NCBI GenBank assembly: GCA_947179485.1
Contig: OX359247.1
Location: 38,416,801-38,480,800, forward strand
Direction: 5' to 3'
DNA: 64,000 nt
Source: Allacma fusca
Lineage: Eukaryota; Arthropoda; Collembola; Symphypleona; Sminthuridae
This document shows, piece after piece, positions 1,588 to 50,123 of the stretch. Numbering within the stretch: the stretch's first letter is position 1; each line of letters opens with the position of its first letter. The notes under the pieces were generated by a model. The model was not told the origin of the DNA, did no database searches, and saw only the letters and a program-made list of their open reading frames with translations. A program made the translations under genes and the position numbers.

Positions 1588-2168
1588 ATGAAACTCACTG
1601 TTTTCCTTTGCCTACTGCTGGCTGTCATGGCTCTCTCAAGCACAGCTGTTGAGGGACAACGAGGAGGACGTTGTGGAGACACTTGTATTACCACTCTTGA
1701 ATACAACCCAGTGTGTGGGTCAAATGGGCAGACTTACTCCAACAGAGGAGGTCTCCAGTGCGCTAGGCGCTGCAATACAAGTAAGAGTAATTTAGTAGAT
1801 ACTTGAATATTATTATTTTAAGTTTTGAATACAGTGAGCTAACTATAAGTAAAAAAAACTATAAGTGGAGCTCTCTCTCTCTCTCTCTCACTCTGTAATT
1901 GTAGTACCCCAACTGAAGGAATCGCAACATTCTTATAAATACCAGGTCTTATAAGGAGAAAAAATATGCATTTGCTGTACATAATGTTTTACGTGCGCTT
2001 TAAATGTTTCCGACTGTACCATTCTTTAGCCTGAGTAAATGAAATGAGTAACATATAGTAGGAGTGAGCATACAATAGTAACATACAATAGGTTACACTA
2101 AAGCAAATATCTAATGATACTTAACACTTGTTTCAGGACTTCGCATGATTCGTAGAGGACCTTGCTAA
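1588..2168 (+). CDS. Secreted single-Kazal-domain peptide 1 (two exons)
   Basis: Exons 1588-1780 and 2137-2168 give 74 aa. The intron is GT-AG, phase 1, and contains a (CT)n run near 1869-1890. Residues 1 to about 23 form a signal peptide (MKLTVFLCLLLAVMALSST). The mature part carries a Kazal core with VCGSNGQTYSN. Exon 2 supplies only the last cysteine (RRGPC, stop). There are six mature cysteines, but the usual fourth one after the TYSN motif is glycine; a cysteine appears four residues later (LQC) instead. The second residue after the second cysteine, the usual P1 site, is Thr, and the loop is longer than in classical domains. The likely role is extracellular protease inhibition or antimicrobial defence; the target is unknown. 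Confidence 0.85.
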
Positions 2169-4140: not shown

Positions 4141-4213
4141 GTTTCTGTGGTGTAGTGGTTATCACATCCGCCTAACACGCGGAAGGTCCCAGGTTCGGTC
4201 CCTGGCAGAAACA
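4141..4213 (+). tRNA. tRNA-Val (anticodon AAC), copy 2
   Basis: Identical to the copy at 825-897 over all 73 nt, with anticodon AAC at 4174-4176. The 5' flank (AGTTTCCATTCGTGATTACA and onward) and the 3' flank are also shared with the other copies, so whole segments were duplicated, not only the tRNA. Confidence 0.96.
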
Positions 4214-8928: not shown

Positions 8929-9308
8929 ATGAAGTACCTTATTTTGCTCGGACTTTTCGTGGTTGTAGTTGCATCTGCAACTGTTGAAGATTTACAGGAA
9001 CAAGGATGTGGGAAAGATTGTTATATTCCTCGGGTATTCGATCTTCTATGTGGATCTGACGGTATAACATACAGTAATAAATGGGAATTTGACTGTGCTA
9101 AACGGTGCAATAAAGGTAATTATGTTCATCGAGTGTCGCACAATTATTTAACACTTAAAACTTTCTTATTTAGACTTCTAACTTTTATTCAAATACAGAT
9201 TCTGTACAGCCAAATATTATACTATGCATTTGACCGTAAAAACTGATTGTTAAGAGGTGCTTTCCTTTAGATCTGACAATTGCTGAACACAGACCGTGTA
9301 CTGAGTAA
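8929..9308 (+). CDS. Secreted single-Kazal-domain peptide 2 (two exons)
   Basis: Exons 8929-9115 and 9271-9308 give 74 aa; GT-AG intron, phase 1. The ATG at 8929 begins a clear signal peptide (MKYLILLGLFVVVVASAT). The Kazal core is LLCGSDGITYSNKWEFDC; the canonical fourth cysteine is Trp and a displaced one follows. Exon 2 supplies the last cysteine (HRPCTE, stop). The residue two after the second cysteine is Ile, so the predicted inhibitory specificity differs from peptide 1. The intron stands at exactly the same place as in peptide 1. The surrounding flanks are diverged copies of the same duplicated unit. Confidence 0.83.
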
Positions 9309-10331: not shown

Positions 10332-10404
10332 GTTTCTGTGGTGTAGTGGTTATCACATCCGCCTAACACGCGGAAGGTCCCAGGTTCGGTCCCTGGCAGA
10401 AACA
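10332..10404 (+). tRNA. tRNA-Val (anticodon AAC), copy 3
   Basis: Identical over 73 nt to the other three copies, with anticodon at 10365-10367. The 3' flank matches the one after copy 1 for about 200 bp. Confidence 0.96.
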
Positions 10405-12764: not shown

Positions 12765-13110
12765 TTAACACCGCCCATAGCGCGCAATTCTTAGTCCTGC
12801 AAAAGATAAAAATAAAATTGTCTCTGTAGAAAGAACATTTTGTGATCTGGATCCTTCAGGTGTGGAATGAATTAAATGACTTCCTAAGAAGCAAACCATG
12901 ACAGCGAATTTGTTTGTTTAAACGCTTACTTCGATTACACCGTTGAGCACAAGCAAGAGATCCACGATTGCCATAAGTTCGTCCATCCGTTCCGCAAATT
13001 TCTCGCAGTTCCAAGGTAGTCACACATGGTTGTCCACACCGTTGGGCCTCGACAGCAGTCGTAGCAAGTGCAGCAATGAGAAAAAATCCGAGAAGCAGCG
13101 GAATTTTCAT
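12765..13110 (-). CDS. Secreted single-Kazal-domain peptide 3 (two exons)
   Basis: Minus-strand exons 13110-12930 and 12796-12765 give 70 aa; GT-AG intron, phase 1. The start is the ATG at 13110 (MKIPLLLGFF); the open frame extends upstream but has no ATG. A signal peptide covers about residues 1-22. The Kazal core is EICGTDGRTYGNRGSLAC: the usual fourth cysteine is Gly, with one displaced as in peptides 1 and 2. Exon 2 encodes RLRIARYGRC and stop. It is close to peptide 1 in the loop (PCVTTLEL versus TCITTLEY) but lies on the opposite strand, so this copy was inverted or arose by a separate event. Confidence 0.83.
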
Positions 13111-14974: not shown

Positions 14975-15556
14975 ATGAAACACACTGATTTCCTTTGCTT
15001 ACTGTTGGCTGTCCTAGCTCTCTCAGCTACAGCTGTTGAGGGACAATTACCAGGTCATTTTGGAGATCCGTGTATACATACATTACCAATGTTGACTACA
15101 GCCCAATGTGCGGGTCAGAACGCCAGACTTACTCCAATATAGAAAGCTTGCTAAAACGCTTAAATAGAAGTAAGTAGTTTAGTAAATATTTGAATATTGG
15201 TATATATGTAATTATATTTAGCTCTAAATAAAGTGAGCTATTGTGAGTGATCTCTCTGTATAAGAACACCCCTGCTGAAAGAAGGAAAATATGATACTTA
15301 TAAATGCCAGCAGCTGTATGGACAAATACCATTGAGATACGTAGGTAGGTGTACGTACGTATATGGGAACGCTTCAAATTATGCTTCCTATAAAGAAGAT
15401 ACTCTTATAAGGGGTATCTTATAACGAGAGTTGACTATCATTCTTAAGTCTGGAAACAATAAATGAGGTACATTTTCCAAAAGCAAAAATAGAATCATTT
15501 TTAAAACTATTTGCAGCCATTCGCATGGCTAGTGGAGGATGTTGGCCCAATTAAGA
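14975..15556 (+). pseudogene. Kazal peptide pseudogene
   Basis: The signal peptide is intact from the ATG at 14975 (MKHTDFLCLLLAVLALSAT) and very like peptide 1. The domain is then broken: the core reads out of frame after about residue 35, a TAG follows at about 15139, and the TYSN-to-cysteine part is shortened. A donor (AA|GTAAGT near 15170) and an exon-2 relic after TTGCAG (15517 to about 15556) remain recognisable, but exon 2 is also degenerate. tRNA-Val copy 4 follows about 360 bp downstream, as in the intact units. Confidence 0.8.
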
Positions 15557-15915: not shown

Positions 15916-15988
15916 GTTTCTGTGGTGTAGTGGTTATCACATCCGCCTAACACGCGGAAGGTCCCAGGTTCGGTCCCTGGCAGAAACA
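15916..15988 (+). tRNA. tRNA-Val (anticodon AAC), copy 4
   Basis: Identical over 73 nt to copies 1-3. The immediate 5' bases (CAAGCAG) are shared, but the wider flanks are the most diverged of the four, so this is probably the oldest branch of the array. Confidence 0.96.
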
Positions 15989-18541: not shown

Positions 18542-21500
18542 ATGGAAATGACTAATGTGTTAGCATTCCCATCGTTCATTCTGTTACTATTAATTGGCGC
18601 TGTAGCTGGACAAGATGCTGCAACAGAAGGCCCTTGTGAAACACATCCATGCAAATGCCCCAAGAATTACCGGCCTATTTGTGGAACAGATGGAAAAACA
18701 TACTCCAACAAATGCATGCTAAAATGTGATAGCCAATGCAATGAAAGTAAGTTTAACTTCTAATCATATCTATTATTCTTACCTTTTTAATTGCAAGGAA
18801 TAAGTTCACCGTTTAGCATACTGCAACAGCCTGTATATCTACTTATACTTTCTTTCTAGATCTTCAGGAGGCATATGAAGGACCCTGTCAGAAAAAATCG
18901 GTTGAGAGCTCCACAGATAATGGCGACAAGAAGGAATGCCAACGTTTTCTATGCAGATGCATGAACCTGGACGAGCCCGTTTGTGGAGTCAATGGAAAAA
19001 CCTACTCCAACAAATGCATGCTACATTGCGATCGGCAATGTTACGAAGGTAAGTTTTCCCAGTCACATAAATTATGCATAATTACCTGGTACATTACCAG
19101 GAACAAGTTCACGGCCAATTTGTAATATAGTAGTATCTATAATTATTATTATTGTACTTTCTTTCTAGGTCCTCAGGTGGCATATGAAGGACCCTGCCAG
19201 AAAAAGTCGGTTGAGAGCTCCTCCGATAATGAGGAGGAGGAGGAGTGCCAGCCTAAACCATGCCAATGCACCAGGCAGTACCAGCCCATTTGTGGAACAA
19301 ATGGAAAAACCTACTCCAACAGATGCTTGCTACAATGTGATCAGCAATGTAAAGAAAGTAAGTAACTTCCAATCACATAAATGATCCCTACCTGGTACAA
19401 TACAAGGAACAAGTTCACAAATAATTTGTAATTGTGCATAATTATTGTACTTTCTTTCTAGGTTTTCAGGAGGCATATGAAGGACCCTGTAAGAAAAAGT
19501 TGGCTAAGAACCCCAAGAGTAATGCTTATGAGGAGGAATGCACGCCAGAACCATGCAAATGCACGAAGGAGTACCATGTAGTTTGCGGGACAGATCAGCG
19601 GTCTTACAACAACCCGTGTCTTTTAGAATGTAATCGGGATCAGTGCAATCCTAGTAAGTTAACTACCTTTAATAAAATCATTCCTTTCCAGTAAAATATA
19701 ACATTGAATTTAATCAAAAATTTTGTTTCTAGATTTACAAACTGCCCATGAAGGACGCTGTGTCAAGAAGACTGGTAGGAATTCAACTGGTAAAGGGAAA
19801 AAGAAAAAGAAAAGTCGATGCAAAGCAAAACCATGTCTGTGTACCAAAGAATACCACCCTGTTTGTGGAACGGATCATCGCACGTACAGTAACCCTTGTC
19901 TCTTGAGATGCAACCGGAAGCAGTGCAATAAAAGTGAGTAGCTGTCCCACTCATGCATTTTTGAATTTATTTAAATCAGAGTCACAATATAAAAGATGAT
20001 CTTCACTAGAATTGAGAAGCGCACATAGAGGGCGCTGTGAGAAGAAATCAAAGAAACGTGGTAACAAGAAGAACAAGAAGAACAAGAAGAATAAGAACAA
20101 GAAGAACAAGAAGAAGAATAAGCAAACAGTTGATTGTAAGCAGAGATCATGTCCATGCACTAGAGAGTACCGGCCCATTTGTGGAACGGATCAACACACG
20201 TATGGAAACAAATGCCTGTTTCAATGTGAGCAGAAATGTAAAAAAGGTATGCGGTATTAAATGCTTAATAATCACAAGAGTATATAATACAGCCCAAATC
20301 TCGATATAACAGTTATTATACATATAACGAAGGGTTTGGTTGTCCCAAGTCCCGTGTACATAATGCTTAAGGAGTATGCAATTATACATATAACTAACGT
20401 AAAAATCGTTAGAGCGTATATAAAAATCTGGCGCCGGGATACGTTATATCGAGAATTGACTGTATTTTGTACAGTTCGTGAAAGTTTGACATGAGGCTGG
20501 TGTATTTTGAAAATAGGTTTAAAACAGGCACATCAAGGACCATGTGAAAGCGATGAAGATTCTGCTAATAATGGAACTTGTAACCCCGATGGTTGTGTTT
20601 GCACTGAAGAGTACGCACCTGTCTGCGGATCGAATAATCAAACTTACTCTAACCGTTGCGCATTGAGGTGTGATCAGAACTGTAATCAAGGCAAGTTGGA
20701 AAACACAATGAAAAGTTTTTCCATTGACTGCATAAATATTAGAACTAATTAATTAGATTTCTATGTACTATAATTAGGTAAGTCTTGAAGGTGTTTTTCT
20801 TTGAAAATAGGTTTACAAGAGTCACACCAAGGTCGATGTGAAAGCGAAACGACTGACAAATCTACCCAAAATGAAGTTTGTAACCCCGATGGTTGTATTT
20901 GCACTCAAGAGTACGCTCCTGTTTGCGGGTCGAATAAGCGAACTTATTCCAACCGTTGCGAATTGAGGTGTGATCAGAACTGTAATGGAGGCAAGTTTGA
21001 AACCATCCTGTAATAGATTTTCAAAATCTGTGTAGCTATTAGAGCTAATAATTAATAATAAATCATATAAAAAGCATTGTTCATGATTTACATATTTCCA
21101 CTATAGACTTGCTGGAAGAATATGACGGAGTTTGCAAAACTTCTAAAAGTTCCCCTCGTAAATCATGTTCGCGAGATTGTAGTTGCGACGATGAGGACTA
21201 CGAACCAGTTTGCGGGACCAATAGGAAAACGTACTCCAATCCCTGCCGTCTGGAATGTGACCAACGATGCAATCGAAGTTAGTATTTGATTATTGGAGGT
21301 TACACTTAAATGTATTGTGGGTCTTGCTTTTACAAAATAATGTTTCCACAGGAATAAAAAAGGCATACAACGGGAAATGCAAAAGACGGTCTAAGAAACG
21401 TACGACCAAGAAACCAGGTTGCAAACAGCGTTGCACTTGTCCCTATCACTACTGGCCAGTTTGTGGGTCTAACGGGAAAACCTATAGTAACGACTGTGCT

Positions 21501-21765
21501 CTCAAGTGTGACAAAAGGTGTAACAAAAGTAAGTGCATTTTCCATACATTTTTCCAGTTCATATTTAAGATGGAAAAAGTTTTTACATTTCACAATAATT
21601 TCAAAATTTAATTCTCTTTTATGGAATTTTTCAATCGTAGGTCTTAGAATGGTAAGTCAAGGATATTGCGGGAAACCCAGAAGAACGACCAGGAAACGTC
21701 CGAAGTCTAAACCTAGAAGACGCCGAACTACTACAACAACTGAAACTTTTGATGACTTTGAATAA
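18542..21765 (+). CDS. Ten-domain secreted Kazal-type protease inhibitor (11 exons)
   Basis: Exons 18542-18746, 18860-19048, 19169-19357, 19462-19653, 19733-19933, 20010-20246, 20517-20690, 20811-20990, 21107-21277, 21352-21528, 21641-21765 give 679 aa. All introns are phase 1. A signal peptide spans about residues 1-24. Exons 1-10 each carry a Kazal core (for example [14 protein letters not shown]), but the final cysteine of each domain (EGPC, RGRC, QGPC) lies at the start of the next exon; exon 11 closes domain 10. Most repeats have eight cysteines, two more than a classical Kazal domain. Predicted P1 residues run Lys, Asn, Arg, Lys, Lys, Arg, Glu, Gln, Asp, Tyr, so trypsin-like and other proteases may be targeted. 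Linkers before domains 5 and 6 are lysine-rich. Introns 7 and 8 use GC donors. An ATG at 18548 is an alternative start. Confidence 0.88.
20290..20462. mobile_element. pogo/Tc1-like MITE in intron 6 of the ten-Kazal gene
   Basis: Ends read TACAGCCCAAATCTCGATAT and, inverted, TACAGTCAATTCTCGATATA, with TA on both sides, as for pogo-type elements. It lies within the intron between exons 6 and 7 and does not disturb the splice sites. A related right end occurs near 15411-15440. Confidence 0.65.
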
Positions 21766-22242: not shown

Positions 22243-22646
22243 TCAAAGTTTGCACCGTCCTCTGCCCTCATATCTCAGGTCTGCAAATTCAAGATAGACA
22301 TTTTCATGTAATTAATTGCTTTAACAAAACTGGATCAAAAACAAAATATAGGTAGATAATTACTACAACCTGAGTATCTATGCATTTAAAGATTAAAACA
22401 CATTGATATATTAATTGAGTACTGAAGGAAACAAAGATTTTAACCTGGATCACATATTTTGGCGCAATTGAAATAGCAAAAGTTCCCATAGGTTCTTCCA
22501 TCAGAACCACACAGAAGATTGAATTCAGCTTGACAGCTGCAGCTCACAGGCCTAGTTCCGCGACAGCCCTTAACGTTGGACTCCGCGGAAATGGTCAGGG
22601 ATACCATCATCGCAAAAATTACAACGTACAATGGTTTCCAACACAT
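22243..22646 (-). CDS. Secreted single-Kazal-domain peptide 4, eight-cysteine type
   Basis: Minus-strand exons 22646-22445 and 22280-22243 give 79 aa; GT-AG intron, phase 1. The ATG at 22646 starts a signal peptide (MCWKPLYVVIFAMMVSLTIS); an upstream open stretch has no ATG. The core is LLCGSDGRTYGNFCYFNC, and exon 2 supplies the last cysteine (GRGRCKL, stop). Unlike peptides 1-3 it keeps both the canonical fourth cysteine and the displaced one, eight in all, matching the repeat units of the ten-domain gene that ends 480 bp away on the other strand. The predicted P1 is Ala. It may be a relative of the module that seeded the large gene, or one budded from it. Confidence 0.84.
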
Positions 22647-23399: not shown

Positions 23400-24740
23400 C
23401 TGATGTTCATGTGCTGAAGGTAAATTATGCTGTGTTTTTTGCTCTTTGTTTCATAATCCGTGAATATTTAGGGTTATGAAATACTCCTTCAATATATCTG
23501 TAGCAAAACGAGGTCACAGTTCAGGTTCAAGTCTCCAGCAGGATTTTATATGCTGGAATTTGCAAATAATCATATTATAAAAACATTCACTATAATTATT
23601 ACATGAAATTATTTATTTTATTTTTTTTTTATTATTTATTACTATAATTATTACTTCTTCCGAGGTAACAAACCTTAAATAAATAAAAAGCTGGATTCAC
23701 AAGGTTAATCAATAACTGTATTGTAAGTTGTATCGGTGTGTTATGGCTCCTCCCCAAATTTATTTTTGGACAAATTTTGACACGTTTATATTTATTATAT
23801 GTATGTATATTACCAAAGTTTAAACTTCCTGAAATTTGAAACGGCTCTCTTTATCTCTTGTTTTTTATATACATAGTGTAGTTATTCAAATGTCTTGATA
23901 ATCCAAAATCTGTCACCTTCACGTCTAAGTCTGAAGTGACTCTACTGTAAAACATTCCTTGTGGCAAGTATAATGTTAGAAAATCATCTCCTCTAAGACA
24001 CTCACAATCAGTACAGGTCCCAATGAGTTCAACAAGGTGTTTGTGTTTCCCTAAATATATCATTATTTTCAGTTCCGATAAAAGTGCCAGGACTGTACTT
24101 TTATCCGCATCTGGTAGAACAGTCTTAGCAGCCACAGTTTGGTTATCAATTTGTCCCTTAAACACGACCCCGAAAGCTCCACGTCCCAGCTCTAGATTAT
24201 CTTCAATTAGAAAAGAAAAAATGAAGACCAAAACTATTGGGTTAACTATTCCTTATATATAATTATACATACAAGTGAACATATGCACTTCAAGTATGTA
24301 ACCTGAAGTAAATCGAGGCTATTGTAAAAACATTAATTCAAATGTTGACTTAGCAGTATTAAAGATTTTCATTTGAATCTCATAATTTTTGTTGTACGGT
24401 AAATACTCTGCAATTTCATGCCCGAATTTCTTTCCAATCAAAGCCTTTCCATTGCCCTTTACAAATGCTTCAATTTCCAGTTCTGTGAGTCCAGCCTATA
24501 CTTGTTCAATAATTTTTAATAAATGTAATGACAACGACCTAAAGGTAATTATAATTTGTATGTAGGAATCAAATTTTTTTTGTAAAAGTGAACTGCATCC
24601 TGTGATTGTGAGTCACGTAAGCCCTGAGGACGACAATTAATAATTATGGTAAGTAAAATGGCAATTATGATGACAGCTATACATGACATGAACACTATCC
24701 CAAAGTTCTTCATGGCATATTCTGACCCTACGCGAAGTCT
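23400..24740 (-). pseudogene. Truncated receptor tyrosine kinase pseudogene
   Basis: This is a decayed partial copy of the gene at 26628-33795. Matching pieces, in order on the minus strand: transmembrane exon (about 24735-24600), juxtamembrane exon (24492-24360), kinase N-lobe (about 24200-23990, with GRGAFGVVF and VAAKT), a fragment around DFGL (23960-23856), and the C-terminal exon (about 23570-23400, CWRLEPEL). The N-lobe runs straight into a damaged catalytic loop: the hinge/insert exon and the HGD motif are gone. The C-terminal exon has an in-frame TGA where the paralogues have CGA. The ectodomain and signal peptide are absent. It cannot make a kinase. Confidence 0.85.
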
Positions 24741-32600: not shown

Positions 32601-33795
32601 GCTGCACATGTTCACGATGTACCCACATATTTTCAAAGGCCAACCAAATAAATTTTAGAAAATCTGGAACAAATATTCAATATATTGGGGGAAGTATGTA
32701 TGTATATACACATTTTAAGAATCGTAGCCTTATGAGTGTTTCAGCACAGCAAAATTTTGAGCTATCCTGAACATAAAATATAGAAACATGTACAGAAGTA
32801 CCACTTGTTCAATCGGCTTTACATTCGTTAAGGAACTTACTCATGGCGGCAGTAATCTTGAGTCGTCTTTCTAACTGATGATTTTCCATTGAGTAAATTG
32901 TGTAGTTTCCACTGTAATCGTGTAAATCGCCTGGGTCAAACCTCCCAGGAATTTGTAACTGAATACGGAAAAATGGCTTCACATATTTCAAATCTTCAAC
33001 TTTGGAAAAGGACACTTTTATTCCATCGTAAGGCTAAAGGAAGAAAAATAATAAATTTGGAATGGGGTTCAAAATAGTGAAAATACTATACCTATGTTCT
33101 GTGCAAATTTACAAACAAAATATATATAATTAAACTGTATAAAACTTACAGAAGCTGGATTGACATCATATTTTAAATCCACGGAGTATGGAGCAAGGCA
33201 AGTCAAACGTAACCCGTCTATTGGAATCCAATGAGTTGGGGTTCAGCAACGATAACATTATCAAACATGATATAAGTATATAATTATGCTGTGACCTAGT
33301 TATTTTAAATGCATTTTTAAGGATATGACTATACTTGCAGCTTCACTCACTTGTGAAATTATGATTTCTATCAATTTCAAATGAATCGTAGTTTGAACAA
33401 TTGACGTGATCCCTAAAAATAATTCGCTCATCGTTGGAAATGCAATTTGAAGGGAATTCGGAAATTTCCTTGAATGTACAAAATCTGGTTTCAGAAATGT
33501 TCCAGGTTTCATTGTCCTGTAAGTTACTATCTATATTTAGTAATTCGGTGGCTTCGTCAGATTTAAAATCAATCTTGAGGGCGTACAAGTGTTCCGTTAA
33601 TTTGTCTGGACTTGGGCTTTCCGGGTCTTTACAAGCGTCTGGGAAAAGTAGTTCCAAGTAGCAGTACGGAACTGGATCTGAATTATCAAAATAGGTGTTA
33701 CCTTGACTCTCTAAACCATTTCCTACGTCAAAAATATTTGGGATAAATGATACTAGAAAAATAAGGCAGACTGGGGGTAGTAAAATAGTCACCAT
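26628..33795 (-). CDS. Receptor tyrosine kinase B (PDGFR/VEGFR/Torso-like split kinase)
   Basis: Sixteen minus-strand exons: 33795-33351, 33217-33150, 33033-32841, 30759-30590, 30378-30216, 29989-29750, 29606-29433, 29327-29194, 29082-28911, 28818-28709, 28613-28472, 28331-28125, 28001-27700, 27581-27459, 27168-26957, 26793-26628; 1006 aa. A signal peptide at 1 to about 26 is followed by a cysteine-containing ectodomain of about 560 residues with Ig-like segments late in it, a transmembrane helix at about 595-616, and a kinase with glycine loop GRGAFGVV (676-683), Lys696, a kinase insert in exon 13, catalytic loop HGDLATRN (843-850), DFG (863-865) and a CWRLEPELRPSF C-lobe. The HRD arginine is glycine. 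Exon 13 ends in a GC donor. The exon-8 donor is shifted upstream relative to gene A. It probably signals from the plasma membrane; the ligand is unknown. Confidence 0.85.
31248..32511. mobile_element. hAT-type element in intron 3 of kinase B (1264 bp)
   Basis: Perfect 10-bp inverted termini CAGTGCTGCG / CGCAGCACTG lie between exact 8-bp duplications CCTGTAAA (31240-31247 and 32512-32519). Both subterminal regions are dense arrays of ACTTGAACTTGA/TCAAGTTCAAGT steps. There is no transposase. A TA-flanked MITE is nested at 31658-31813. It explains why intron 3 of kinase B is 2.1 kb while the same intron in kinase A is about 100 bp. Confidence 0.9.
31658..31813. mobile_element. Nested TA-flanked MITE (156 bp)
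   Basis: TACAGTAAAAG at the left and, inverted, TACAGTGAAAG at the right, with TA at both borders; the interior repeats TATAAAGGACTTTC. It is a pogo-like miniature element inside the hAT element. Confidence 0.6.
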
Positions 33796-36700
33796 TTCAG
33801 CTACTAAGAGAATCTAGATTAAAATATTATCTTTAAAAGCATGCATACCCTTACTTTAGCAAACGAATGTCGTTTATAAGAATCGCTCACAAGGAAATAT
33901 TCAAGGAAAGGTTCAAGCTTGTCATTTATGCAGTAATAATATTTGCAAAATTTTGTCCTTTTTGATATGTCTGATTGTGAGATTTTCCTCTAAATTGTTT
34001 GTAGTAGAAATACTTCTTTGGGTTTTTACAGACTACACAATTACATAGAACTTAATACAGATAATCAAACTGCAGCCCACATAAATTACAAGCTAGTAAA
34101 ATGTTCTCCCCGTGAATTTTGGTTGTGTAAATGTATGCACAGTTGCTTATATTAATTATATCGCGTTTACTATTTCTGAATTATAAAAATATGTGAAAAT
34201 TATTAACACTATGAGACACTCACATACAAGTGAACTTACAGTATATGTATATGTGTATGTACTTATTACCTTGCACGATAGTTAACAATTACTTTGTTTC
34301 CTCAAACATAGGAATTTACGTGTGTACATCAGGGCTGGGTGTAATACGGATTACAATAATCCGGGAGTATTGAAAACAGGCTGAAATATTAAACCCAATA
34401 TGTAATCCCTTCGGAAAAATTTTGGAGACGTAATCCTTTCTAGTAATCCCAAGTTCAATAATTTTTCAAGTAATCCCTAATCCCATATAAAATTTATGCA
34501 TCTGGAATCCCAATAACCGCCTTGAAATACTAGTTAATACAATTCGTAAATATTTCGTAGACTTCCCTTTTTATCCTATCTACCTGTTTAACGCATCTCC
34601 TGCTCTCTAACAACAAATGCAATGAGATATTGGAAGTGTTGACCAGGCTAAAAAGTATACGACTACGGGTTATGATCAAGTTGTAATATTATATTATTTG
34701 GAGATGCAGTCAGGGCGAGTACGAAAATATTATTGTAACATATATCAAGCAGTTACAAATCCTACTATCGTATTTGGCAATTTATATTTAAATAGGCATA
34801 CCAACTGTAACATATTTCATGTTGTAGAGATTGCAACATCATAAACCGTTAATCCGCTCATATGAATTTTGGCGTGTAATCCAGCGGCATAGCCCTGTTG
34901 TTAATTATTTGACTGTAATCCCACCTACGTATTCCCTTTGCTAAAACATTTGAAAAGTAATCCGTAATCCCAAGTAGAAATTTCTAGAAAAGTAATCTGT
35001 AATACGTAATTCCAAGTATCATTTAAAATGTAATCACCTAATCACAATCCAAGAATTTGATGCTTCTAATAATCCAGCAATTTATGTAATATGTCCGGTC
35101 CTTGACATAACAAACTTAACTCTTTCTGCCTGTTTTCAGTAATCCTTGATTATTGTAATCAGAATCGCACCCAGCCCTGATTGGATTATATAAGTACTGC
35201 ATTTCAAGTGCAAATACACATGTAATTATTTTTTGTTTGTTGTGCATTACAGTCGGCCTCGGACTTCCCGTGCAAGCAGGAAGACTTGGTTTCTCAACGC
35301 AACTTTGTTATACACGTATTTACCTAACGTATGATTTTATTTTTTACTTTCCTGGGTACACTTTCGCGTAACTCCTGCCCTACTGTATATGAACATACAA
35401 CGTAAACAGCTAATCGTAACGAGCTTCGCCTTGTGAAGGCATGTTTTTCTTACGTTTAAGATCGATTAATCAAGATCTAGATTTCCTGTAGACTAAACTC
35501 CTAAAATAATTTCATGGAATATCCAAATTCTTGGAATAACTTAAGATAAAAACGAAATCAATTATGCATCGTGCTATTTTAATGAATATAAATAAATCCG
35601 TGTTTAGAAATTAACAAGAATCAATCCCAAGACTAAATTTACTGTTGCAATAAGTATTTGAAAAGGATCATTATGTAAAGGGTATATCATTCCGTTTTCC
35701 TCTCCCCTACCCCATAGAAGCAACAGCGACACAAAACATGTGATTTCTGATTCCCCCGATTCGAAACAAATTCTCTTCAAAACTGTTTTAAAATTTGTTT
35801 CATTGACCTAACTTAAAAATTGAGGTCGCAATCCTCAAGAACGTGAAGCAAAATGTATAAGCAATAAATAAGCAAAATATTTTGAACTACAAATTTTTAT
35901 TCACAGGGAAAATTTATTCTGAAATTTTTTTCAACTCTAATTTGTAGGAGATTCTATTTGTATGCGACGCCTCAACAAAATAATTCAAAATGTTGTGCTG
36001 TGCTTATAGCAAATTTTATGAGGATTCAATCGATCCTAGTATCAGCTACTATGTAACTACATATGTAAAACACTGTGGTATGAGGACATTACAATATGCG
36101 GTGAAGTTTATAAATTGTCTGAAAAAGTGGCACTAATAATAAACTTTTTACTTGGTTGTATATTTCCTCACATTATTAGGTCATTAGGTCCTGAAACCGC
36201 TATTTTTGAACTAAGAACGTGATATGAGGTCCAAATAAATCCCCGTGAAATTAGCCAGAAGCGCAGTGTTTTAAATAAAATTATGAATGACATATTTCTG
36301 TGAAAAAGTGGAGTTCAGAAACTCCTTTTCCGCACGTTTGCTCATTACGATAAATTTAGCCAACCTTACTCATGTACCCCCTGCATTATGTTGTACCTCC
36401 CCGAGAACTCCATAAAATTACCTACAAATGAAGGGCAAAACATAGTGAAAACATTTTCCAAAAACATTGACAAACATTTTTAATTCCGACAATCCTCCAA
36501 ATATTCCAATGTTTTATTGGAATTTCCTTTTAAGAATTTTTTTCTGAATAACAATCATTCCGATTTTAACCAAATACGAGCTCAAACTTACTGTTGACAC
36601 ACAATGTCCACAACAAATTACAGCTAAATCATTTAATTTATTAATTTTTTTTTTAAATTGCTCTCTCTAAAACTTTAGGACCAATTTTAACCAAATACGA

Positions 36701-40400: not shown

Positions 40401-42346
40401 AACTGTCCACTTGATAGGTGGCACCATAAAGTAGTCAAGGAAGTAACAGAAGAAGCTAACTTCCCCCCTGTCGTACAATTCTACGGGCTCTTGAGGCTCA
40501 TCCACGTGGTCAACGTAGCTCCTGCCATCCATGTGACGTATGTTAATTAGAGCGTCCGTCTTATTTTCTAGTTCACTGAAATTCTCATCTGGAATATTTT
40601 TATAGTTCATGGTAAGTATTTGGCACTGTTTTGTAAAATAAGTACTGAATAAGGAGTCATGCTTAGTAAAAATCTTACATGAATAAAGGTCCAGTCCCAT
40701 AAAATACCGTCGTTCGATAAGGCTTTCTCCTCCATGACCACATGAACATCTTATAATCCCCTGCTGTTGAACTGGCAACAATTCTTTACATGTTGGATCA
40801 TTCAGTTTACAATTTTTCCCAACGATTTTCCTCGAACATGTTTTATCCTGCAGTGAACACAGTTATAAATAAATCCATAATTAATATTACTGCACCCGTA
40901 TAAAAATAAAAATTAATATTTACTATTTGGAACATCATATAACTTATAATAAGGAGATTTGCACATTGCCAGATATCCCGACATTTTTCAGCTCCTCTTT
41001 TTACTCATAGTAGTAGGAAGAATATTAGCTATAGTTAAGTAGTTTTAGTGACATTAATATTACGGTGTCAAGACAAGATTTGAGTAGTTCAGTTTCCATG
41101 GGATTGGACGCTTGTACGAGAACAAGAAAAACTGGAGTTTTGCTGCTGTTGGACTCGCATTTTATTCTCCCATCGGCAGCCGTAATCTTAGGAATGTCCC
41201 CGTCAGGCGTTGTAGTAGAGTTGGAACCGTAATCTATAGCCCAGTTAAATTAAATTGAACGTCTTGCATTTCAAAAGAAAGATTATTACAGTAAAGGCTG
41301 GGGTAATGAGTGCTTTAACAAATTATTTACTTGGTGGCAGGATTGTAATGTTTAATTGCCTCCTCAGCAAACGATTCTCTGCAGAGAATATAGTGTAGTT
41401 CCCGGAAAATTCATGTAAATTTCCTGGCTTGAATTCTCCGGGTAATTGCAGCTGAATTTGGTAGTATGGTTCAGAAATATTGATGACCGGGACTTTTGCA
41501 AACCTGACTTGCACTCCCTCATAAGGCTAGATACAAATCAGCATTTTATTTGATCAAGACCAATACAGTATGCAGCAATTAGTTAGAATTGATGAGGAAA
41601 TACTGGAGTATTTCGAATGGTAATTCTGGATGATTGCTTCCAATTGACTCACGATAGATTTCTCATACTTCACTTCCAACGGATATGGTGCAATGCAGGT
41701 TATCCTCAGTCCATCTGAGAAAGTTGTACAATTCCAAACCAAAATTTATTAACATTGTGGAATATAATGACGTACATGTTATATATTTTATACATTTAGT
41801 GTTTGTGTATAAATATAAATTTATGTCATAAATAATTACTACCCATACATGGGCATCGTAACAAAAGCATTACAAAAAAATCATGATGATTCACTTACAT
41901 TTATATCTATGAATTCTATCCATTTGAAAAACATCGTAATTCGAACAATTGACATGATCTCTGAAGTCTAATTTCTTGGAAATGCAGTTCGGTGGAAACT
42001 GGGGAATCTCCTTGAACGAGCAAAATTTATTTTCTGAAGCGTTCCAGCCCTCTCGTTCCTCCAAATCTTGAATCACTCCTGCTCTTGCTTCATTACTATT
42101 TTTAGTCTTAAAGTCAATGTTTAGAGCATATAAATTCCGGGTGAATTTCTTTGACTCGTCACTTCCTGGATCTTTACAAGCGGATGGAAATAAGAGATCT
42201 ACATAGCAATACGGAACTTGCTTTTGTGAAGTAAACTTTTCACTTGAAGTGGTGTTGTTTCCTTGTACAGTCAATACCATTAGGACTAAATGGGCTATGA
42301 CGAGAAACGCGGAGTGATTATAAATTCGGGACCGTTTAGATCCCAT
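37419..42346 (-). CDS. Receptor tyrosine kinase A (PDGFR/VEGFR/Torso-like split kinase)
   Basis: Sixteen minus-strand exons: 42346-41899, 41714-41653, 41526-41331, 41233-41064, 40847-40679, 40588-40337, 40257-40093, 40000-39840, 39751-39586, 39501-39395, 39215-39071, 38973-38767, 38652-38372, 38276-38154, 38034-37823, 37599-37419; 1014 aa. Every exon phase matches kinase B. The start is ATG 42346; a longer open frame upstream lacks ATG. A signal peptide ends near residue 29; transmembrane helix at about 604-625; glycine loop GHGAYGIV (686-693), Lys706, HGDLATRN (846-853), DFG (866-868). The kinase insert in exon 13 contains YVNL, a Grb2-type YxN site if phosphorylated. Intron 6 is only 79 bp. 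The HRD arginine is glycine here too; catalytic Asp and Asn are present, so activity is likely. Confidence 0.88.
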
Positions 42347-42419
42347 TTTACTCCACTCGTCTGCAATAACTGACAAGATTTCAAAATTATATGATATTTC
42401 TATTGGAAAGCCCACATCG

Positions 42420-44594: not shown

Positions 44595-46935
44595 TTACAA
44601 CCTTTTCTTCTTCCTACCCCTGGATTTCCTATTCGCTACAATGATTACCTTCTCCTTTGTAAATCTTCTGTAAACAAGTACAGCTGCTCCACAGGGTATA
44701 CTCAACAACAATAAAATTATTCCAGCGAGGAAAGCAATTACATCTAAAGAAAAGTACTGGAAAAAATTTAAATTTCGAGCAGGAGATCGTAGATGAGGGG
44801 CTCCTCCATGGCGTAGGATGTACTCTACAGAATAAACTGCCCGGTCCAAAGGGCTGTTCATGTGATCACGAGATATCCCCGATAAAAATTTAGCTCTTTC
44901 CCGGAAGCTAAAAAATTGGAAAAACATTTAAGTAAATCAAATAAATACAGTTACAGAAAGATGTAGTCCCACTCCCTAATCTCCATGCAAGTTCTACAGT
45001 CGTGGGTAATCTCATGACCTCTGTAAAAGTAGTACGAAAAACGATAATTGACCAGGTTGTAGCAAAAATTGCAAAGTGTAAGATTGTTTCGTAACCTTCA
45101 GCCCGTCCAGAACTAGGTCCTCAAAACCGCTGTAAGTACAAAATGACTCAGGAAAAAAGTCAATGTTGTCATAGTATCACCATTGATAAATTAATTTTTC
45201 CTGAAGGGAGGTTGAGGGCAATGGAACAATAATAATTGTTTGCTCATCTATTTGTAATTAAATTTACTACAACGTAGCAAATTATTGTTTTTATCACTGT
45301 TTTACTAAGTTAAATTACGATGAGCAAATTAAGATAGAGCTTACGGGTGTAAAAACTCCTCTTAATTTCCTTAACTGCTAGTACTTGTTGTTGGCGCTTC
45401 ATTAAATGTGCATCCTTTTTCCGAGTAAATGTGAAACTGCCATTTGACACTACAGTGGCACATTCAGTAATCCAAACACAAGAAAATTACCTTGGTTCAT
45501 TCAACACCCTTGTAATAGCTTGTGTCAGACTCTGCTCCGTCAGATCCATCAAATTCAGTACAAGAGCGAATCCCTTAGAAACAGCTTGTTGCATGTTCCA
45601 GTGCTGATCTCCAAACATAGGAATGCCAACCAGTGGAACACCCTCATACAGAGCTTCCGTAGTTCCTCCGTGGCCACCATGAGTAATGAATAGTCGGATG
45701 TTTTTATGCGCCAGAATATCTGGTTGAGGGAGCCACTTGCTTAGTTTGACATTTTCCGGCACATCCGCCATATTTTCTGTTTCCCATTTCCAAATAATAC
45801 GCTGCTTCAGCTTGGAAAATGTTTTCAAAAATATCTGGCGATACCTTTCTGGCATAGTACTGCCCTGTAGGAATGAACCCATGCTGAATAGTATGAAACC
45901 TTCGTCAGCTCCGTCACAAAAATCTTGCAGATCCTATAAACAGGAATAAATTATTGCTCTAGTATTTATAACCATAAAGACAACCAACGAATCCACTATT
46001 AATTTAAAGGGGTTTCCACGTTTAGAGAAATTTTCAAAATCGGCAGGCAAATTGTCTTTGACCACATATTAAAAGTATTGCAAAATAAAACAAACCTTAG
46101 GTAATGGTTTAGCTTCCTTCAAGTGCATTCCCCCAACTTCCACAATATCAGGCATCAAGGGTCTTGGAGGTACAAAGCTGAAGTGACTATTCACTAGAAC
46201 CATGCTAGTCCTATCTCTGGCTATCTCATCAATAGACGGAGCATTCTTGGAGACAAACTCCCGATAGATACTTTCCATCCGAGGATTGTAGTAGAACTTG
46301 CGGATCAGTTCAAAGTACAACATTCCAAATAGATTCATGGTCCGCTGCCAGAAGGTCATGCAGTCAGTAAATCCATAAAAGAGCAGGGGTACAAAAGATG
46401 GTAATGTTGGGGATCCCATGGAATGTGTAACCCAAGGCATGATTGCCACCTGGCTAATGGCGATGGTTGTTGTGTTCATTTCGTGAATCAGCCCATACAA
46501 ACAATCGTTGAACAAGGGTGTGAAAATAATTAAATCGAATTTTTCTTTTATAATTTTTTGAACTTCTTGAGAACGATAACCCATTCGACAACCAGATTCA
46601 AAATATGGCATGAAACTATAAAACGGGCACTCCAGGTACATGTTTATAGAACTCATACTCGCCCGAGTTTCAAATAAATTTTTATCTGGAAGGGACTGCT
46701 GGTCAGGATTATATGGCTGAATGTTCCGTACATTTCGTAGAACTTCGGTGCTCTTGACTGGATTCACTATTGTGACCTGGTGACCACGTTCTGCTAATTT
46801 GTGTAGCAAAGGTTCGTAAATTATTTTATGACTTTTGCTTGAAACAAAACTCAATGAGAGAATCTTAGCGGATTTGCAGTTTCCAAATAGGAAGAAAGTT
46901 AAAACAAAAAAAGATTTAAAAAAATGATGGAACAT
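44595..46935 (-). CDS. UDP-glucuronosyltransferase (membrane UGT)
   Basis: Minus-strand exons 46935-46096, 45933-45491 and 44907-44595 give 531 aa, the usual UGT length. It should transfer a sugar from a UDP-sugar to small lipophilic substrates in the ER lumen (detoxification, pigments, hormones). A signal peptide spans about 1-23, then a variable acceptor-binding half. The C-terminal half carries the UGT signature at about 347-391 (WLPQPDILAH, ITHGGHGGTTEALYEGVP, GDQHWNM), with the donor-binding Asp-Gln at 389-390. A transmembrane helix lies at about 480-507, followed by a short cytoplasmic tail rich in Lys/Arg (RKSRGRKKKRL). The introns are phase 0 and phase 2 with GT-AG borders. No second UGT is in the window. 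Confidence 0.93.
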
Positions 46936-48273: not shown

Positions 48274-50123
48274 TTAAAGAAGAATACCGAGTATAAGGAA
48301 AGAAGTCACAATGCTATCGCTTTTGATAAACTCTTGTAAAACTGTTAGTCCTCCACTGGTATTTAACTGCTGTTTGTTCCTGGTAAAATCAAACTGAAAT
48401 TAGTTACTTTATACTTCACTTTAGTGAAGTAACTAAACTACATATATTATGAACATGCACTTACGCTTTAATGACCTGAAGAGCCTTGAACTCTAAATCC
48501 GGAATTTGATATTTACTTCCAGCGGCAAAAACTTCCAATGCTGCCTTGATCGGCATTTCGTCCAACGGTATATTAACTATATTTTGAGTACATCCTTCCA
48601 CTAAATCGTCAATTTGGTACTTGTGAGCCAAGGCCAAGACATCTAAATTCTTCTTTGTATTCACACCCAACATACTGACACTTGTTTCGTAGATGCTATG
48701 GAGAAAAGCCTGCATTGCTGCTGCGTTCACATCGGGGAGCTCTATTTCTCCCGAACGAGTTTCTTTCATGTTTGATTGAAACATCGCGGCAAACACCGGG
48801 CTACGAGCTAAAAACCAAAGCCAATCAAACACGTCATAAAAAAATTAAATCAACCAAACAGTTAATGCTGTGCACTTTCCACCAAACACTTACCAGCTAA
48901 AACACATTTGTGAGCCGCGAATCCTTGACTAGCATACGGCTCGACTGCCGAATCTTTAGATTTGACCTTAAACGTTACATCTGTAAAACTTGTATCTCTT
49001 CGAAGTCTCTTAATCCAATTATCAGCCTCGGGTTTACTGGTTGCAGGTCGCTTTATGTCAACATAAGAAAAGGAAGAATTTTCAGTAAGCACGTTTTGTT
49101 TCTCACATTCAGCTCCAGCAGTTACCGTGCTATAGGACGGTTTCGAAAATAAGATTTCAGCACAAACTGAGACTGGAATAAACTCCACGTCCTCACTTTG
49201 ACCAATGGTTCGTCTTTGTTTTTGGCATATTGACTTTAGAGTAGCCCTCGGTATAAACGCCGCATTGAAGGAGCTGGAAATGTCGCAATGTGAATGTTCC
49301 ATTAAGTTGCATTTGTTGTCGGGATCAACGTGCATAACTGTTATAAATACACCACAATTAAACCCCATCTCATACCTTTAATCCATAGACCATCAACTAA
49401 AAGTAAAATATTAGGACACTAATTACTGCTAAAAAGCAAAGAGCATTACATTTAGTCACCACCGTATTGTCAAACTTCCCCAAAAATTTAATCTTCACCC
49501 GGCAGTACCTAAAGCGCACCCGACGAAAAGAAACCTGAGTAGCTTCTGGACATCTCTGAACGCATATGGCCATTTGAACCGAATCTTTATCCCGACCTTC
49601 ACTCAGCGTTAAAACTCTGCAAGTCAATCCACACATTAACAATCACATCCCAGATCACTCTCCCTCCATCAACCCAGCCCATTATATAATAATCTTTAAA
49701 CTCACACATTGAAAAATGCTTTATCCTCACAGCGGACACACAAAGTGTCCCTAAGTCTCCAGTCCGCCGAATTTTTCAAAAACGAGTTCGTCCCCACATG
49801 AATATCGTCCGATGTGTCATGGGAGTCCACATTAATCAATTTCAAAGAGCCCGACGACACCACTTTCTGCGTACACAACAGCACTCAATTAAATGCATAC
49901 AAAATTCCATTCCATCAAACGTCCCTCTTCCATTAACTCCCTTCCAATTCTTCCCCAATCCCAATATTACCTTGTCCACATAGGAAACCGTGGCATACGC
50001 TGAATGTGATGACCCATCACTGTCCTCAGTGTCATTCCCGGACACAACGGACTCTTGCTCATTTTCCGACAGCTCTTCTTGTTGACTTTCACTATCATCA
50101 TTACTATACTCACTGCTACTCAT
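48274..50123 (-). CDS. BTB/POZ-domain protein (SPOP/TDPOZ-like)
   Basis: Minus-strand exons 50123-49971, 49866-49706, 49616-49450, 49337-48894, 48807-48465 and 48379-48274 give 457 aa. The BTB domain spans about 272-395 (TSFTDVTFKV, FAAHKCVLAARSPVFAAMF, ALAHKYQIDDLVEGC), followed by a BACK-like tail. Such proteins usually link substrates to cullin-3 ubiquitin ligase. The N-terminus is a serine/acid-rich tract; residues about 60-160 could be a weak MATH-like substrate domain, which I cannot confirm. ATG 50123 is the first in frame after a TAA, so a 5'UTR exon probably lies near 50230. The last exon has two possible acceptors; I chose the one (48379) giving a tail like other BTB-BACK proteins. 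The other (near 48393) would give a ten-codon tail. Confidence 0.8.

Follow-up and report, generated by a model that had tools for sequence, protein, structure and literature searches.

The analysed stretch, referred to as the window, comprises 64,000 nucleotides (nt) of the genome of the collembolan Allacma fusca (NCBI GenBank assembly GCA_947179485.1, contig OX359247.1, positions 38,416,801 to 38,480,800 of the forward strand) and contains a cluster of genes encoding Kazal domains. The largest of them, located at positions 18542-21765 (+), was modelled as a single gene with 11 exons. Spliced together, these give a coding sequence of 2040 nt, which has its sole stop codon at the end and specifies a product of 679 amino acids. 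The Pfam profile Kazal_1 matched this protein in 10 stretches (E = 2.8e-76, 251.8 bits with a curated cut-off of 21), giving ten Kazal domains with eight cysteines in each. The 10 introns are 74-270 nt long, eight with GT-AG and two with GC-AG borders (the GC donors being those of introns 7 and 8). All of them are in phase 1, and the split codon was found exactly 9 residues N-terminal to the last cysteine of its domain (10/10). There is no intron between domains, the linkers being placed inside the exons in all nine internal exons. Such a layout is regular far beyond chance expectation.

Exon 1 (18542-18746, plus strand as are all exons of this gene) encodes a signal-peptide-like start and seven of the eight cysteines of Kazal domain 1, with Lys as the predicted P1 residue. 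Each internal exon encodes the tail of one domain, a linker and the core of the following one. Exon 2 (18860-19048) joins the tail of domain 1 to the core of domain 2 (predicted P1 Asn), exon 3 (19169-19357) the tail of domain 2 to the core of domain 3 (Arg) and exon 4 (19462-19653) the tail of domain 3 to the core of domain 4 (Lys). The linker of exon 5 (19733-19933), between the tail of domain 4 and the core of domain 5 (Lys), is Lys-rich, and that of exon 6 (20010-20246), between the tail of domain 5 and the core of domain 6 (Arg), is long and composed largely of Lys and Asn. Exon 7 (20517-20690) carries the tail of domain 6 and the core of domain 7 (Glu) and exon 8 (20811-20990) the tail of domain 7 and the core of domain 8 (Gln), both exons being followed by a GC donor. 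Exon 9 (21107-21277) comprises the tail of domain 8 and the core of domain 9, in which Asp is the P1 residue by position in a loop one residue longer, and exon 10 (21352-21528) the tail of domain 9 and the core of domain 10 (Tyr). The last exon (21641-21765) encodes the tail of domain 10, a basic and Thr-rich C-terminus and the stop codon.

Four intact single-domain genes, here called K1588, K8929, K13110 and K22646, are located in the same window, with Kazal_1 scores of 32.5, 25.1, 26.8 and 23.4 bits, respectively, all above the curated cut-off. K1588 consists of exon 1 at 1588-1780 (+), encoding six domain cysteines, and exon 2 at 2137-2168 (+), encoding the tail with the last cysteine. K8929 (exon 1, 8929-9115; exon 2, 9271-9308; both +) and K13110 (exon 1, 12930-13110; exon 2, 12765-12796; both -) are also six-cysteine genes, whereas K22646 (exon 1, 22445-22646; exon 2, 22243-22280; both -) has eight domain cysteines like the large gene. 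K8929 and K22646 have weak donors (GTAATT and GTTAAA, respectively). The only intron of each gene is again in phase 1 and splits the codon 9 residues N-terminal to the last cysteine (4/4), so that the position and phase are identical in 14/14 introns of the five intact genes. A decayed copy at 14975 was left out of this count, its stop codon preceding the intron position. The initial annotation of this DNA had claimed that all introns of the large gene are in phase 1 just before the last cysteine and that the single-domain genes have their intron at the same point; both claims were borne out by the gene models. Because the domain copies are related, the 14 introns amount to fewer than 14 independent facts.

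Cysteines occupy the six classical Kazal positions, which would allow the pairs 1-5, 2-4 and 3-6, in each of the ten domains of the large gene and in K22646, and two more are present in each. The two extra cysteines are found in 14/14 domains, including those of K1588, K8929 and K13110, in which the second and fourth classical cysteines are missing together. This joint absence is as expected if one bridge was lost, and the three genes are classed as putative variant Kazal genes by profile match alone. A Cys-x3-Cys motif occurs in 10/10 domains of the large gene and in K22646. As non-classical group II Kazal domains are described, the helix spans Cys-x3-Cys and an additional disulfide links the alpha and beta elements (PMC3082530). 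By the Cys-x3-Cys of their predicted helix, the domains of the large gene are assigned to this group. The extra cysteine pair was also considered as a new feature and rejected as such; it is probably not new, the same source giving an additional disulfide for group II.

To see where in the folded domain the intron falls, the exon 3 product was modelled, for which nine exon products served as the alignment. The sole helix of this model covers residues 51-61 of 62 and includes Cys52, Cys56 and Cys60, so the intron would fall directly after the helix. In the termite protein TFP4, the helix is placed at residues 29-38, the last strand at 46-48 and the last cysteine at 52 (PMC4433142). By distance to the last cysteine, the Allacma intron maps near TFP4 residue 43, which by analogy would lie between the helix and the last strand. 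An exon product completing itself by circular permutation was tried as an idea and found unsupported, as tail residues 1-9 were unplaced in the model (block means of 51 and 48 in the predicted local distance difference test, pLDDT) and formed no strand.

The common intron position is well supported, from the sequence comparisons, as a result of descent within this cluster. Compared as wholes, introns 1-3 are alike in every pairing, with z scores of 7.0 (introns 1 and 2), 10.1 (introns 1 and 3) and 12.5 (the remaining pair), and in 590 random pairs used as the whole-intron null none reached a z of at least 4.7. If instead introns had been inserted separately into each domain at the same site after the domains had multiplied, an identical place and phase in 14/14 cases and the homology of introns 1-3 would both have to be coincidental; because of these two facts parallel insertion is very unlikely, nothing was found in its favour, and we give it hardly any weight. 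A tree of domains was built by maximum likelihood from the 14 domains and rhodniin domain 1. None of its inner branches was starred (0/12). The better-supported pairs were D7+D8 (92/90), D4+D5 (87/77) and K1588+K13110 (82/86), with K8929+K22646 weaker (78/61), and long branches led to K22646 and rhodniin.

The domain tree gives no direction between an ancestral state of the single-domain genes and their origin as shortened copies of the large gene. They could have been derived from a multi-domain gene by the loss of internal exons, the first exon becoming joined to a tail exon. Deletion of the symmetric 1-1 exons would leave precisely a first and a tail exon, which is the single-domain layout, and the absence of the second and fourth classical cysteines from three of the four genes is probably a derived condition, while K22646, which neighbours the large gene, keeps eight. 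Against such a derivation, no starred branch puts the single-domain genes among the domains of the large gene. On balance, an origin of the small genes by loss appears unlikely.

The unit that was copied was read from comparisons of cores, tails, linkers and introns. Domains 1 and 3 are alike over the core (identity 0.80), the intron (0.70, z 10.1), the tail (0.93) and the linkers of exons 2 and 4 (0.71, z 5.9), and the identity drops to 0.57 in the cores of the same two exons. This core pair is rank 2 of 45 and the tails of domains 1 and 3 are rank 1 of 45 tail pairs. Sliding comparison of exon 1 with exon 3 gave an identity of 0.71-0.92 at 18658-18742 and 0.50-0.58 at 18592-18632, the tail-like part; the corresponding row for exons 4 and 5 was dropped as an artefact of overlapping windows. 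Introns 1 and 3 and introns 2 and 3 are similar at both ends (5' z 5.3, 3' z 3.8). Because the likeness ends between the linker and the core of exon 4, domains 1 and 3 were copied in the domain register, as a core-intron-tail-linker unit with a breakpoint in the coding sequence of exon 4. For the cores of domains 2 and 3 both registers fit equally, the tails being rank 2 either way.

A different register was found for exons 7 and 8. With an identity of 0.89, their cores are the most similar of the 45 pairs, whose second comparison, by tails, puts those from the same exons at rank 4 (0.79) and those from the same domains at rank 38 (0.52). Introns 6 and 7 are similar at the 3' side only (z 3.6; 5' z -1.7) and introns 7 and 8 at the 5' side only (z 4.4; 3' z -0.3), the latter likeness being retained under local scoring (5' z 4.7); introns 7 and 8 also have the rare GC donor in common. 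Because of the ranks of cores and tails, the one-sided intron homology and the common GC donor, exons 7 and 8 are supported as the outcome of a duplication that had its breakpoints in introns and copied a tail-plus-core exon as a whole. In total, 5/45 intron pairs had a z above 3 on a side (introns 1/3, 2/3, 6/7, 7/8 and 3/4, the last with a 5' z of 3.4). For the null, 45-nt pieces taken from 24000-64000 were paired at random; of 1486 such pairs, 0.34% had a z of at least 3, two a z of at least 3.6 and none a z of at least 3.8. The pair of domains 4 and 5 fits neither register clearly (rank 9 for the cores, 7 for the tails of the two domains and 10 for the tails in the two exons).

The beginning of the gene was examined separately. 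According to the initial annotation, exon 1 contains an orphan EGPC before its first domain. The EGPC cysteine has the spacing to the following cysteines (0, 5, 7, 15, 26, 30, 34) seen in domains 2, 3, 6, 7 and 8; a difference of a single residue is found in domains 4 and 5, ahead of the seventh cysteine, and in domains 9 and 10, near the start. Because this spacing matches the first cysteine of other domains, the EGPC cysteine is the first of domain 1's own eight and does not stand outside the domain. What held of the original description is a resemblance to a tail that is weak but above chance. The left context of EGPC is the most tail-like of 70 contexts of non-tail cysteines, with a score of 5.3 vs 12.6-20.4 for true tails (shuffle p = 0.0015 in a post hoc test). 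At the DNA level, 2143 other plus-strand sites with a terminal TGT or TGC were compared, the ten real tails being excluded, and five of them scored as well as EGPC. The first cysteines of the four intact single-domain genes have tail scores of -6.6 to -10.7, with nothing tail-like about them. It is possible that the EGPC context came from a deletion that fused a tail to a core.

These results bear on the way in which the gene grew. It had been proposed that the large gene goes back to a two-exon ancestor with a single domain and grew as a tail-plus-core exon was duplicated again and again. Exons 7 and 8 did arise in this manner, the tail-like context at the first cysteine of exon 1 agrees with it, and so does the intron position shared with the single-domain genes. 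The proposal does not extend to domains 1 and 3, which were copied in the other register with the breakpoint between the linker and the core of exon 4, nor to the first duplication. The exons of a two-exon ancestor are one for signal plus core and one for the tail, and a tail-plus-core exon exists only after the first copying of a domain unit. Because the ancestor had no such exon to duplicate, the first duplication must, as a matter of logic, have involved a core-intron-tail unit. Nor does the tree, with no inner branch starred, fix the ancestral state from which the proposal starts. As an account of the whole gene, growth by tail-plus-core exons alone is therefore regarded as improbable, to about the same degree as derivation of the small genes by loss.

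The reading that we prefer, with a probability of roughly 0.7, is that the gene encodes a secreted, ten-headed group II Kazal inhibitor with an ancestral intradomain phase 1 intron, and that later copying took place in both registers. The ancestral domain would have carried one phase 1 intron, situated 9 residues N-terminal to its last cysteine and between the helix and the last strand. With an intron inside the domain and none between domains, tandem copying yields tail-plus-core exons, and copying of such a domain would thus have led to exons composed of the tail of one domain and the core of the next. Subsequent copying then followed the domain register for domains 1-3, where the unit was core, intron, tail and linker and the breakpoint lay in coding sequence, and the exon register for exons 7 and 8, where a tail-plus-core exon was copied as a whole and the breakpoints lay in introns.

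Several points weigh against this reading. The splice sites of the gene models were picked by hand, and the models are based on sequence only. Confidence in the exon 3 structure model is low, with a mean pLDDT of 64.3 and a predicted template modelling score of 0.45, although the core part is better (block means of 77-79 for residues 31-60). Introns 1 and 2, with a z of 7.0 as wholes, have under local scoring a 5' z of 6.0 and a 3' z of 1.7, the latter side showing no clear likeness, and in the other side-wise comparison neither side passes a z of 3. The 3' likeness of introns 6 and 7 gives a z of just 2.8 when scored locally. In Mantel tests on DNA, the domain register was favoured only weakly over all domains (r = 0.27, p = 0.036), with r = 0.05 (p = 0.38) when core 1 was left out, the exon register gave r = 0.08 (p = 0.30), and on protein the values were p = 0.08 for the domain and p = 0.60 for the exon register. 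The linker and tail pieces that were compared are short, and most of the remaining domain pairs are, at the level of sequence divergence observed, too diverged for a register to be assigned. Gene conversion could imitate recent duplication, and given the tail-like context of its first cysteine, exon 1 could once have been a tail-plus-core exon itself. The history of the gene is largely too old to be read from one genome.

As for the function of the product, exon 1 opens with a hydrophobic stretch resembling, by appearance, a signal peptide. The predicted P1 residues of domains 1-10 (K, N, R, K, K, R, E, Q, D and Y, read by position only) comprise five of the trypsin-like class, one chymotrypsin-like and four acidic or amide. 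Most likely, judging from these features, the protein is a secreted multi-head inhibitor acting on several serine proteases in the gut, immunity or defence. The linkers preceding domains 5 and 6 are Lys-rich, which suggests, by analogy with brasiliensin, cleavage into smaller inhibitors. The gene is a new member of an ordinary, known family, the Kazal serine protease inhibitors (MEROPS I1), and is distinguished by its tidy layout. Each core exon holds one complete reactive-site loop, and because the internal exons are 1-1 symmetric and the tails alike, the gain or loss of an exon would keep the domains complete. The offset layout might in this way be useful to the animal, the exons serving as 1-1 cassettes with interchangeable tails, with which unequal crossing over in introns or alternative splicing would add, remove or swap heads as complete hybrid domains; this last suggestion is speculative and we consider it rather doubtful.

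The window was also searched for further Kazal sequences. A tblastn search with the 14 domains against the whole window revealed one further convincing copy (15076-15150, E = 2e-5). It belongs to the decayed copy at 14975-15168 (+), which is related to K1588, with an identity of 83% and 80% across two stretches, carries an early stop and was not remarked on in the initial annotation. The best match elsewhere in the window was a weak Kazal-like stretch at 35122-35223 (minus; E = 0.017), which is probably due to chance. Exon 1 was also used as a query on viral contigs, where 80 stretches matched its pattern but none was a relative. A relic tail, also previously unremarked, was noticed at 551-604; it lies in a region (267-646) composed of upstream-type blocks (267-513) followed by a relic of the tail exon and downstream sequence (551-646), which resembles a K1588-like gene minus its core exon. 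Four tRNA-Val(AAC) genes (825-897, 4141-4213, 10332-10404 and 15916-15988) are interleaved with the single-domain Kazal genes, each of them in a repeated block (126 nt in four copies, 296 nt in three) representing local segmental copies. Elsewhere in the window, similar open reading frames at 33343-33795 and 41891-42415 (minus) have a common stretch starting with VPYCY, the latter frame having no Pfam match, and UDP-glycosyltransferase pieces, a BTB open reading frame and a tyrosine-kinase-like piece were observed at 45487-46935, 48461-48832 and 23851-24231 (minus). Such gene content points to an animal, probably an arthropod, as the host.

The nearest solved sequences include agrin, ovomucoid, rhodniin, infestin and dipetalin. 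Like the Allacma gene, the multi-Kazal inhibitors of triatomine bugs (rhodniin, infestin, dipetalogastin and brasiliensin) consist of tandem Kazal domains, and in the alignments rhodniin, infestin and dipetalin have the same CxC start and Cys-x3-Cys helix. However, their aligned stretches have no cysteine at the seventh Allacma position, and the first position precedes these stretches. The ascidian trypsin inhibitor is likewise a non-classical group II inhibitor with an extra disulfide, a comparison made by class description. Ovomucoid and ovoinhibitor genes are multi-Kazal genes of repeated units too, and ovomucoid was a good sequence match. In these avian genes the introns are located between domains; the Allacma gene differs in having none there.

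The number of domains, ten, may be compared with eight in brasiliensin and seven in infestin, as given in the brasiliensin paper, in which exon duplication and processing into small inhibitors were both proposed (PMC2653937). Kazal genes of 3, 7 and 9 domains are listed for Bombyx in PMC3278429, and a table in PMC5691223 includes multi-domain Kazal inhibitors of Pteromalus. In the open-licence literature, none of the matches listed dealt with this intron position or with offset Kazal exons in an invertebrate. The vertebrate gene SPINK1 also has one intradomain intron, placed toward the C-terminal end of its Kazal domain. Its site, derived from c.194 (exon 3), c.198 (exon 4), c.194+2T>C and p.C79F as they appear in PMC7949130, is codon 65 in phase 2, 14 residues before Cys79, in contrast to phase 1 and 9 residues in 14/14 Allacma introns.

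Exon duplication in multi-Kazal inhibitors is thus an old idea, and what is new here is that two duplication registers are read in one gene. An offset exon module alone does not prove exon duplication; the Allacma gene offers a small, clear case in which exon and domain boundaries differ and the duplication unit can be read in two registers. Should its intron position turn out to be widespread among arthropods, Kazal gene structure would have a lineage there that is distinct from the one represented by SPINK1.

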